Source: Prochlorococcus sp. AG-388-E21 (lineage in GTDB: Bacteria > Cyanobacteriota > Cyanobacteriia > PCC-6307 > Cyanobiaceae). Taken from it: a stretch of 64,000 bases of DNA. Positions 7,008 through 50,409 of this stretch are shown in pieces. The stretch spans positions 124,001 through 188,000 of the forward strand of contig QCGO01000001.1 of NCBI GenBank assembly GCA_003279855.1, read 5' to 3'. The first letter of the stretch is position 1. Each line of letters starts with the position of its first letter. A model generated the notes under the pieces. It worked only from the letters and a program-made list of their open reading frames with translations. It did no database searches and was not told the origin of the DNA. A program made the translations under genes and the position numbers.

Positions 7008-7173
7008 AATCCTGAAAGAATAATTTATGAACAGTCCAATAACAATAAAGAGGTAATTTATTTTTCGCTGATAGTCTTTTTATTTGTAGATTATCTATAT
7101 CAAAAACTATTAAAAAACTATTTTTAGTAATTAATACTCTAGATATTTGATACCTTTTGCAAGTATGGTAATA

Positions 7174-7243
7174 ATATCAGAAACTCCTCACACACTAATT
7201 TCTGATAATCAAGCACCCTTATCTCTAAATTAGGGTGTTTTTT
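7174..7243 (+). ncRNA. yfr1: Yfr1-like small regulatory RNA
   Basis: The gene carries the 11-base ACTCCTCACAC element (7183-7193), the ultraconserved single-stranded motif of cyanobacterial Yfr1. A 9-bp stem (TATCAGAAA at 7175-7183 with TTTCTGATA at 7199-7207) encloses it. A second hairpin follows (CACCCT at 7214-7219, AGGGTG at 7232-7237) and ends in a T6 run, giving a terminator. Total length is about 70 nt. In described Yfr1 RNAs the motif lies unpaired between two hairpins; here it would sit in the loop of the first. I therefore call it Yfr1-like and not certain Yfr1. Established Yfr1 blocks translation of outer-membrane porins. Confidence 0.6.
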
Positions 7244-7344
7244 ATTGAAATAAAAATAGAAAGTTATAACTGGCACATGTGACAATTAAATTACTTTCCT
7301 CATCCCCTTCCTATTTAGGAGAATGTATGACATATTATAAAAGT

Positions 7345-7435
7345 GTGTAGGAGAGGTTTTACTAAAACAGTGGAAACAAGGAAACACTTGATTTAGTTCA
7401 ACCAGGAAAAGACCTCTAACAGAGGTCTTTTTTTT
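7345..7435 (+). ncRNA. Yfr2-family small RNA (Cyano-1 motif)
   Basis: The transcript would start just after a TATTAT -10 element (7333-7338). It contains the tandem GGAAACA elements (TGGAAACAAGGAAACA at 7371-7386) that define the Yfr2/Cyano-1 family. It ends in a 9-bp terminator stem (AAGACCTCT / AGAGGTCTT, 7409-7429) with a T8 run. The length of about 91 nt matches the family. Its 5' end (AGTGTGTAGGAG, 7342-7353) is complementary to the Yfr1-like motif 150 bases upstream apart from one bulged base. No coding potential inside. Confidence 0.8.
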
Positions 7436-7467
7436 ATGCATCAAAATAGATTAAACATTAAATTATT

Positions 7468-10419: not shown

Positions 10420-10448
10420 GATGCAGCTCCTGAAGTTGCTCAAGTCCC

Positions 10449-10498
10449 CGTCCTTTGGCTTGAGTCGTACTGCGGTCTATCTAGTGGTAGATCGGACG
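10449..10498 (-). promoter_or_regulatory. glutamine-II riboswitch (Downstream-peptide motif) ahead of the 33-residue peptide
   Basis: On the minus strand the P1 stem is CGTCC (10494-10498) with GGACG (10449-10453). P2 is ATCTA/TAGAT, followed by the conserved CGCAGT, CGA, TCA, CCA blocks and then GGACGGGG. The second copy at 50360-50405 has the same blocks with compensatory changes in P1 (CGTTC/GAACG) and P2 (CCTTC/GAAGG). The covariation is seen directly between the two copies. The family binds L-glutamine and controls short downstream frames in marine picocyanobacteria. Confidence 0.8.
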
Positions 10499-10503
10499 AT
10501 TTG

Positions 10504-17729: not shown

Positions 17730-17781
17730 TAATTCGTTCTCATAGATTTGGATTCCAATCCATTTTTACGTGTTGAGGTAC

Positions 17782-19092
17782 ATGAAACTTTTTCAAAAAC
17801 TAATTGCTGCTCCTGCCATAATCTCTTTGGCATCAGGGTTCGCAGTAAATGCATCTGAGATCAATTCAACAGATCTTAGTGATTATTCTAGATCTAACAA
17901 TTTAGTATCTTTAAATGATTTTAAATCAGATACTTTATTGCCAGGAGATTGGGCTTACGATTCATTAAAGAATCTTACAAATAGTTCAAAATTCAATGGA
18001 AACCCAGTCTCTCGTTTAGAAGCCGCTGCTGAATTAAGCAATCTAATTGCAGGCGGTGAAGGCTTAATGAATGGAGCTGCAATAGATAGACTAAGTGATG
18101 AGCTTGGTTCTGAGTTGGCAATTATGAAAGGAAGAGTTGATGGACTTGAAGCTCGTGTTGATGGTATCGAAGCAGGACAGTTTTCATCAACAACAACGAT
18201 GAAAGGTTCAGCTGAATTTTTGATCGGTGCTAAGAGTAATGGTGATTCTGACGCTGAAGAAGCTGTCATGACTGCCTTTCACTATACATTCGACTTAAAT
18301 ACAAGTTTTACGGGTGACGACAAATTAAATGTTGAGATATCAGCTGGTGACCAAACAGGTAGTAAAACACTTGGTGCAGATCTAGATTTTGGAGAGCCTT
18401 CATCTAGTCAGCTAAGAATTGAAGATATTAACTACACATTCCCTGTAGGAGAATGGAAACTATCCTTTGGCGAATCAATGGATGCTTCCAAAAACTGGCC
18501 AAATGCCTGTGCTGTAAACAACATCTATGATGCATTAGGTGATTGTGGAGCTGCAAACTCTGTTGATCTATCAGGAGATATTTCTTTTAGTGCTGGTAGA
18601 AGTTTTGGAGATGGATGGGATGTAGGTATCGGAGTTTCAGCAAATGATGGTGAAACTACAAAAGGTATGTTCACTAAGGAAGGAGCTGATTACTATGGAG
18701 CTGCTATCGGATACTCATCAGATAATTACGCTGTAACTCTTGCTTACTCCGATAAAGACACTACTTCATACTGGGGGGCTACAGCTTCTTATAGTACTGA
18801 TGGTGGTGCAACTGTCAGTGGCGGTATTGAATTCGGGAACCCAGAATCATCTTCAGATGATACTACTCAGTACGTTGTAGGAGTTTCTACCGATGTTGGT
18901 GAGGGTACTCTTTCAGCATCACTAGGAACAAAAGCTGCGTATACTGATAGTCAGACAGAGCATTATGCTTACGACCTCAATTATTCTTACCCAATAAATG
19001 ATTCAATGACTATCACACCATTTTTCTACATAGTTGAGAATGCTGGTGAAGATGATAATGGATTTGGAGCAATCACAACATTCAAATTCTAA
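17782..19092 (+). CDS. som: Som-type outer-membrane porin
   Basis: The open frame reaches a GTG at 17770, but the true start is the ATG at 17782, preceded by TTGAGG. It has a signal peptide (MKLFQKLIAAPAIISLASGF...AVNA), then a short SLH-like region (GDWAYDSLKNL ... SRLEAAAELSNLI). A coiled stretch (GSELAIMKGRVDGLEARVDG) follows, then a beta-barrel of alternating strands ending in Phe. This is the cyanobacterial porin architecture. Its position between pstS and the phosphatase, with Pho-box-like repeats ahead, suggests a phosphate-starvation porin. The ribosome-binding region GTGTTGAGG is complementary to the Yfr1-like motif with one bulge. Confidence 0.9.
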   Translation: MKLFQKLIAAPAIISLASGFAVNASEINSTDLSDYSRSNNLVSLNDFKSDTLLPGDWAYDSLKNLTNSSKFNGNPVSRLEAAAELSNLIAGGEGLMNGAAIDRLSDELGSELAIMKGRVDGLEARVDGIEAGQFSSTTTMKGSAEFLIGAKSNGDSDAEEAVMTAFHYTFDLNTSFTGDDKLNVEISAGDQTGSKTLGADLDFGEPSSSQLRIEDINYTFPVGEWKLSFGESMDASKNWPNACAVNNIYDALGDCGAANSVDLSGDISFSAGRSFGDGWDVGIGVSANDGETTKGMFTKEGADYYGAAIGYSSDNYAVTLAYSDKDTTSYWGATASYSTDGGATVSGGIEFGNPESSSDDTTQYVVGVSTDVGEGTLSASLGTKAAYTDSQTEHYAYDLNYSYPINDSMTITPFFYIVENAGEDDNGFGAITTFKF

Positions 19093-50331: not shown

Positions 50332-50359
50332 GTTTCGATGTGACAAAACGGCCATCCCC

Positions 50360-50405
50360 CGTTCCCTGGTATGACTCGAACTGCGCCTTCTGATGAAGGT
50401 GAACG
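50360..50405 (-). promoter_or_regulatory. glutamine-II riboswitch (Downstream-peptide motif) ahead of the DUF4278 gene
   Basis: P1 is CGTTC (50401-50405) with GAACG (50360-50364), and P2 is CCTTC/GAAGG. The conserved CGCAGT, CGA, TCA, CCA blocks follow, then GGAACGGGGG. The family senses L-glutamine. The final G-rich strand sits next to the alternative start at 50355, so ligand binding could hide it. The same elements occur at 10449-10498. Confidence 0.82.
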
Positions 50406-50409
50406 AAAT

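Follow-up and report, generated by a model that had tools for sequence, protein, structure and literature searches.

The locus that we analysed in a 64,000-nt stretch of the genome of Prochlorococcus sp. AG-388-E21 (referred to below as the window) is very probably the Prochlorococcus yfr10-yfr2 locus, in which tandem genes encode two small RNAs (sRNAs) that pair with each other and are inherited as a unit. The adjacency and the mutual pairing are already known: both, including the bulged C of the duplex, were described in 2008 (PMC2518516), and experimental support followed in 2019 (PMC6778093).

Identity of the two RNAs

Judged from their sequences, both RNAs of the window belong to curated sRNA families (Table 1). 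The match of the first to the covariance model of RF02362 extended over the full length of the model (1-78), and that of the second to RF01701 (Cyano-1), at 7341-7408 (+), was also full length, with 67.1 bits against a gathering score of 41. In addition, comparison of the window with the MED4 genome gave a single alignment of 2512 nt with 92.9% identity, covering both sRNA genes. The original prediction had called the first RNA Yfr1-like; the name should read Yfr10, since at gathering scores the RNA matched RF02362 and not RF01116. Yfr1 of the same genome (RF01116) was found on another stretch, L281, at 341-394, upstream of a thioredoxin gene (PF00085), and the window RNA neither matches RF01116 nor lies between guaB and trxA. 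The 86-aa ORF fragment located 5' of Yfr1, which we took as guaB, matched no Pfam family.

Folding predicted that Yfr10 begins with a hairpin of an 8-bp stem and a 15-nt loop containing CTCCTCACAC, the loop motif being that of RF02362, and that the motif is accessible (0.98). With Yfr2 taken to span 7342-7436, its initial 13 nt were predicted to be unpaired and to be followed by a hairpin with the GGAAACA repeat and then by a terminator-like hairpin; the repeat, GTGGAAACAAGGAAACAC, spans the hairpin loop, as in other members of the Yfr2 family. The ends of the RNAs were placed with the help of MED4 (genome G015 of our set), in which our Yfr10 match, 346661..346738, equals the coordinates in Table 1 of PMC2518516, where northern blots and 5' RACE are the evidence. 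As MED4 yfr2 starts at 346828 (PMC1242208 Table 2) and our RF01701 match there begins at 346826, the Yfr2 start in the window is likely to be at about 7343. The window contains four further matches at other positions; two matches to the glutamine-II riboswitch (RF01704) were noted in it, at 50351-50408 and 10439-10501 (-).

Table 1. Positions in the window of the two sRNA genes and of their predicted elements
Feature	Position	Strand	Basis or remark
Putative yfr10 -10 element TATGGT	7164..7169	+	Placed from the mapped MED4 Yfr10 start (PMC2518516 Table 1)
Yfr10 small RNA	7176-7253	+	RF02362, 100.6 bits, E 3.4e-15; gathering score 43
Yfr1/Yfr10 motif CTCCTCACACACT	7184-7196	+	Loop of 15 nt, first Yfr10 hairpin
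Yfr10 terminator-like hairpin and T run	7211..7243	+	Fold
20-nt dyad AACTGGCACATGTGACAATT	7268..7287	+	Between the genes, upstream of yfr2; 17/18 positions fit the consensus
Putative yfr2 -10 element CATATT	7331..7336	+	Placed from the MED4 yfr2 start 346828 (PMC1242208 Table 2)
Anti-motif AGTGTGTAGGAG	7342..7353	+	Yfr2 5' end
Yfr2-family small RNA	7343..7436	+	About 94 nt including terminator; ends by orthology with MED4 yfr2 346828..346921
Yfr2 terminator-like hairpin and T run	7404..7436	+	Fold

Pairing between the Yfr10 loop and the Yfr2 tail

The duplex of 12 pairs with one bulged C that had been predicted between CTCCTCACACACT and AGTGTGTAGGAG proved exact, both in its coordinates and in its pairing. 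If Yfr2 starts as in MED4 (7343), the pair A7342:U7196 falls outside the RNA and 11 pairs are left; restricted to accessible bases, this shorter duplex had an energy of -16.4 kcal/mol. To compare the pairing with chance, we used dinucleotide shuffles and a proxy for IntaRNA in which Yfr2 was taken as 7342-7436 and the duplex was confined to bases with an unpaired probability >0.5. The resulting duplex (-17.5 kcal/mol) was equalled by none of 2000 shuffles of Yfr2 (mean -3.9, sd 1.9), by one of 2000 shuffles of Yfr10 (mean -6.8) and by none of 2000 when both RNAs were shuffled (mean -3.7). The unrestricted best duplex, at -21.2, was ordinary: out of 2000 shuffles each, 1531 (Yfr2), 1435 (Yfr10) and 1598 (both) were as low or lower. 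The expectation that the pairing energy would be better than that of shuffled controls was thus borne out among accessible bases (0-1/2000) and failed for the unrestricted duplex, so that the energy test is passed only with structure taken into account. IntaRNA likewise takes structure into account.

The accessibility of the tail depended on where Yfr2 ends. Specifically, the tail was 0.97-1.00 unpaired for 3' ends at 7434-7438, giving the free 5' end of the Yfr2 family, and the MED4 length of 94 nt places the end at 7436; with 3' ends at 7442 or 7449, the tail was only about 0.2 unpaired (0.22 for 7442) and the restricted duplex fell to -4.4. In the 54 Yfr10-Yfr2 units of the survey described below, the tail was more than half accessible in every case when the 3' ends were cut at the T run (median 0.93); with longer, uncut 3' ends the median over the 54 units was 0.67 and the window copy had 0.26. 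In the folding model, the accessible pairing of the Yfr10 loop and the Yfr2 tail exceeds chance, given a MED4-like 3' end of Yfr2.

Terminators, promoters and an intergenic dyad

Both RNAs had been predicted to have their own promoters and terminators on the same strand. The fold agrees with this for the terminators, each RNA having a terminator-like hairpin followed by a T run, while the promoter positions are those that we infer from MED4 (Table 1). A simple terminator scan, which covered loops up to 8 only, found none for either RNA. The promoter scan gave one match, at 7147-7175 (shuffles average 9.1), with a register that would put the transcription start within the hairpin of Yfr10; TATGGT at 7164-7169 would fit the mapped MED4 start better, and a TANNNT pattern was seen at this place, by eye and uncounted, in the loci inspected.

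The dyad between the genes was scored against the consensus AACTGNCACATGTGNCAGTT, which was derived from the same loci. At least 12 of 18 positions agreed, at a shared place, in 41 of 64 Yfr2 loci, a count that leaves out L080, whose score sits at another place; the reversed-sequence control gave 0/64. Of the ten Yfr2 loci at which no Yfr10 was detected, five (L092, L112, L115, L126 and L129) have the dyad, and MED4 yfr3 (L090) is without it, suggesting that the dyad goes with Yfr2 and not with Yfr10. The GntR regulator PMM1637 binds yfr2 promoters via the CGRE1 motif, and two MED4 homologues are regulated by it (PMC6778093); the dyad at 7268-7287 is perhaps a CGRE1 site of PMM1637.

Adjacency in related genomes and in a second genus

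In the genome of AG-388-E21, each of four Yfr2 is preceded on its own strand by a Yfr10 match, with gaps of 61-91 nt; three of these matches are above the gathering score and one is below it (37.3 bits). Two of the further units lie about 3 kb apart on opposite strands (L282, 1107-1812 and 4762-4997; contig C1, about 431 kb), one of them adjoining the 6S RNA, and a stretch of 2 kb in genome G031 likewise holds two units, again on opposite strands.

We then surveyed 60 genomes, 37 of them of the same genus and many incomplete, with stricter filters. Of the 60, 31 contained Yfr10, every one of them within the genus, and 51 contained Yfr2, 32 of these being in the genus; G025 (97% completeness) yielded neither. 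Among the within-genus matches (55 Yfr10 and 64 Yfr2), 54 of the 64 Yfr2 are preceded by Yfr10 at a distance of 61-91 nt, and 54 of the 55 Yfr10 are followed by Yfr2, the exception being L131 in genome G021. The adjacency, whose conservation the original prediction had proposed to check, is kept in most related genomes of the survey. Inspection by eye of the ten unpaired Yfr2 revealed a Yfr10-like motif missed by the search in four (L087, L107, L112 and L119), an upstream Yfr10 that seems decayed in two (L115 and L129), and no visible Yfr10 upstream of L090 (MED4 yfr3), L092, L120 and L126.

The Yfr10-Yfr2 order has been stated for high-light strains (PMC6778093). When we searched 121 genomes of the family for Yfr2, there were 27 high-scoring loci among the matches listed, and among these the exact motif was present upstream of Yfr2 in 7/7 loci of the own genus, in 7/9 of a sister genus (g52) and in 0/11 of other genera. 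The hairpin of the sister genus, AACAGAAC-loop-GTTCTGTT, compared with ATCAGAAA-loop-TTTCTGAT here, differs on both sides in two of the eight stem pairs. A 21-mer of this hairpin occurred in 27 stretches, all titled Prochlorococcus, in 24 of which a Yfr2 loop follows within 330 nt downstream, one of the remaining three being cut short. The Yfr2 tail in the nine loci of the sister genus, among the matches listed, holds GTGAGGAG, a complement of the motif without a bulge. The RF02362 search detected no Yfr10 in 23 genomes of other genera; since the motif hairpin is nevertheless seen upstream of Yfr2 in the sister genus, this model is narrow.

Exact scans of viral contigs gave two matches to the Yfr2 loop, each in one and the same stretch directly downstream of a likely coding start, and 119 matches to AACTCCTCACACAC, with no Yfr10-Yfr2 unit; by exact patterns only, 0/121 viral stretches had a Yfr2-like tail (of either type) or loop in the 400 nt after CTCCTCACAC.

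Inheritance of the unit and choice of partner

The distances among Yfr10 copies correlated with those among the neighbouring Yfr2 copies (Mantel r 0.62, reached by 0/2000 permutations). Swapping partners within genomes gave a mean r of 0.22 and 0/5000 swaps reached 0.62 (13 genomes, 36 pairs), which means that the units were mostly duplicated or inherited together.

At the model position, 41 of 54 motif 10-mers are CTCCTCACAC, and cognate pairing had -16.48 kcal/mol versus -16.28 kcal/mol for partners permuted within genomes, with 44 wins, 9 ties and 27 losses in 80 comparisons of cognate with non-cognate partners. The cognate gain of 0.2-0.3 kcal/mol was reached by 41/5000 free permutations and 37/5000 within-genome swaps, figures that come from related, not independent, copies. 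Being so small, this gain led us to reject the idea that adjacent partners are clearly the best match. Pairing is not private to adjacent copies: the partners within a genome are nearly interchangeable, and Yfr1 shares the motif. The motif of one partner is altered in units L127 and L100 (G031), L084 (G001) and L122 (G019), the strongest damage among them being in the Yfr2 tail of L127 (-7.8 kcal/mol). The altered motifs in some Yfr10 and the damaged L127 tail suggest that the pair is not always maintained.

Whether proximity itself matters is evenly balanced in our judgement, there being about an even chance that the adjacency is a by-product of ancestry, in which Yfr10 would have arisen beside the Yfr2 promoter and would hitch-hike there, both RNAs acting in trans on the whole cellular pool, with proximity having no function. 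The near interchangeability of partners (44/9/27 of 80; mean gain 0.2 kcal/mol), the apparent decay of Yfr10 upstream of some intact Yfr2, as seen by eye, and the existence of Yfr2 without visible Yfr10, such as MED4 yfr3 (L090), are consistent with such an origin; however, order and strand are kept in the 54 pairs, as are two spacing classes (61-68 and 81-91 nt), the sister genus has the same order (7/9 loci, among the matches listed), and the cognate gain, although small, exceeds 4963/5000 within-genome swaps, again of related, not independent, copies.

Proposed mechanism

In the mechanism that we favour, the tandem genes yfr10 and yfr2 would each have their own promoter and terminator. Yfr10 would display the Yfr1 motif in a hairpin loop and Yfr2 the complement as a free 5' tail, so that the two RNAs, when both present, would pair over 11-12 base pairs with one bulge. 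Pairing with Yfr2 would remove Yfr1 and Yfr10 from their mRNA targets and would occupy Yfr2 itself, and the unit is inherited and duplicated whole. Such mutual titration, suggested for this locus in the original prediction as a sponge pair, was proposed in 2008 (PMC2518516) and supported in 2019 by experiments on the MED4 orthologues (PMC6778093). In MED4, Yfr1 and Yfr10 were pulled down by Yfr2; in E. coli, co-expression of Yfr2 restored GFP from the Yfr1-repressed 5' region of PMM1121; in vitro, RNase E cleavage of Yfr2 stopped once Yfr1 or Yfr10 was bound; and binding of Yfr1/Yfr10 to ppa mRNA was abolished by small amounts of Yfr2 (all PMC6778093). With Yfr10 as bait, Yfr2 itself was only slightly enriched and Yfr3-5 were clearly enriched (PMC6778093), suggesting that the adjacent Yfr2 copy is not the favoured partner. 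By analogy, the same mechanism probably operates in this strain as in MED4; our own observations on the strain and its relatives comprise sequence, family membership, significance of accessible pairing, conservation and co-inheritance.

The MED4 units yfr10-yfr2, yfr12-yfr4 and yfr18-yfr5 (PMC2518516, PMC6778093) resemble that of the window in families, order, strand, spacing, motif and bulged-C pairing, but an upstream Yfr10 match was found for 3/4 Yfr2 in MED4 and for 4/4 here (one below the cut-off). Yfr1 (RF01116) has the ACTCCTCACAC motif in common with Yfr10, but it is a separate gene, with a thioredoxin gene downstream in this genome, whereas Yfr10 sits in tandem with Yfr2, and its motif lies between hairpins and not in a loop (PMC6778093). 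GlmY/GlmZ, named in PMC2518516, are likewise a case of one sRNA altering the activity of another; unlike them, Yfr10 and Yfr2 are encoded in tandem and pair directly.

Two other readings bear on the pairing. It is unlikely that the main product is a read-through RNA, of about 261 nt in this strain, in which the motifs cancel each other in cis and where the efficiency of processing or termination determines the amount of free Yfr10 and Yfr2. A MED4 RNA of about 270 nt has been noted as a precursor of Yfr10 and Yfr2 (PMC2518516 Table 1), loop-tail pairing in cis was predicted with probability >0.5 in 50/54 units (51/54 with 3' ends at the T run), and the predicted window precursor pairs loop and tail in cis at its energy minimum. 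However, 103/162 shuffled-tail and 100/162 shuffled-loop controls passed as well, leaving only a modest excess, the folding model allows no pseudoknots, and the precursor may be a minor species, as both genes have terminators and probably their own promoters. As a speculation, cis pairing might bear on the slight enrichment of Yfr2 with the Yfr10 bait. That the complementarity is incidental, each motif being kept for its own mRNA targets, of which both RNAs have many (PMC6778093), is highly improbable and already largely refuted by the published MED4 work, given the reciprocal pull-down, GFP reporter and primer-extension competition (PMC6778093) and the 0-1/2000 shuffles that match the accessible pairing.

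Porin-like genes with the motif in a terminator loop

The exact motif 10-mer occurs at five sites in the genome of AG-388-E21, namely three Yfr10, Yfr1 and C4:162359-162368 (L280, L291), the last of which lies outside the window, where it forms part of the loop of the terminator hairpin that follows a porin-like gene. The encoded protein (424 aa) matched no Pfam family and is called porin-like because of its 36% identity to a window ORF that matches OprB (PF04966). When 200 genomes of the genus were searched for motif-N4-18-T7, 11 of them yielded 12 matches in all, against one for the reversed control. The terminator-loop architecture is present in four matches (L286, L287, L291 and L294), in each case downstream of an ORF, and these ORFs resemble one another at the C-terminus; seven were set aside as chance, lying opposite a long open reading frame with no real hairpin, and L289 was set aside because its hairpin is weak and lies far from another ORF. 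Followed by TTTT, the stem GCAGCCC/GGGCTGC was present in those four of the 200 genomes only, always with the motif in the loop, and a looser stem was found in 6/266 genomes, the four plus G257, with the partial motif CTCCTCATTG, and G283, without the motif.

In all four genes, the anti-motif GTGTGAGG lies 6-9 nt upstream of the ATG or GTG taken as the start, which in L286 and L291 is a chosen start, since the open frame continues upstream through the octamer. The octamer was near the start in 22 of 27 porin-like loci (L312, L315 and L323 of 30 having been left out, and L311 misread, its longest frame being another gene). In the window, the gene at 17746-19092 (+) that matches OprB porins (PF04966) is without GTGTGAGG, and GTGTTGAGG precedes its likely ATG; GTGTGAGG is present in four other porin-like genes of the same genome.

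The two ends of the same mRNA were predicted to pair at -14.2 to -14.9 kcal/mol, and Yfr1 to pair with the same site at -14.3. The terminator-loop motif is not general, as other relatives, for example L296 (70% identical), are without it. It is possible, although we hold this only tentatively, that the Yfr1 motif, together with its complement, makes up a wider code found also inside single mRNAs, as in the four porin-like genes. The word 'terminator' is absent from the main text of PMC6778093, and we make no claim that this lead is unreported. If it is true, a porin-like mRNA could repress itself and its paralogues, its 3' end serving as a built-in Yfr1, or it could instead soak up Yfr2 and thereby free Yfr1/Yfr10.

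Implications

Prochlorococcus has few protein regulators. The Yfr1/Yfr10/Yfr2 network touches carbon, nitrogen and porin genes (PMC6778093). Three points appear to be worth a second look: the unit-wise inheritance, the occurrence of the unit in a second genus, and the porin lead. Now that many genomes, and a second genus as well, show the antagonists inherited as one tandem unit, the role of proximity becomes testable. The porin lead suggests that some target mRNAs hold both halves of the code and, if true, would together with the tandem Yfr10-Yfr2 units amount to an RNA buffer built on one short code common to sRNA, anti-sRNA and target mRNA.
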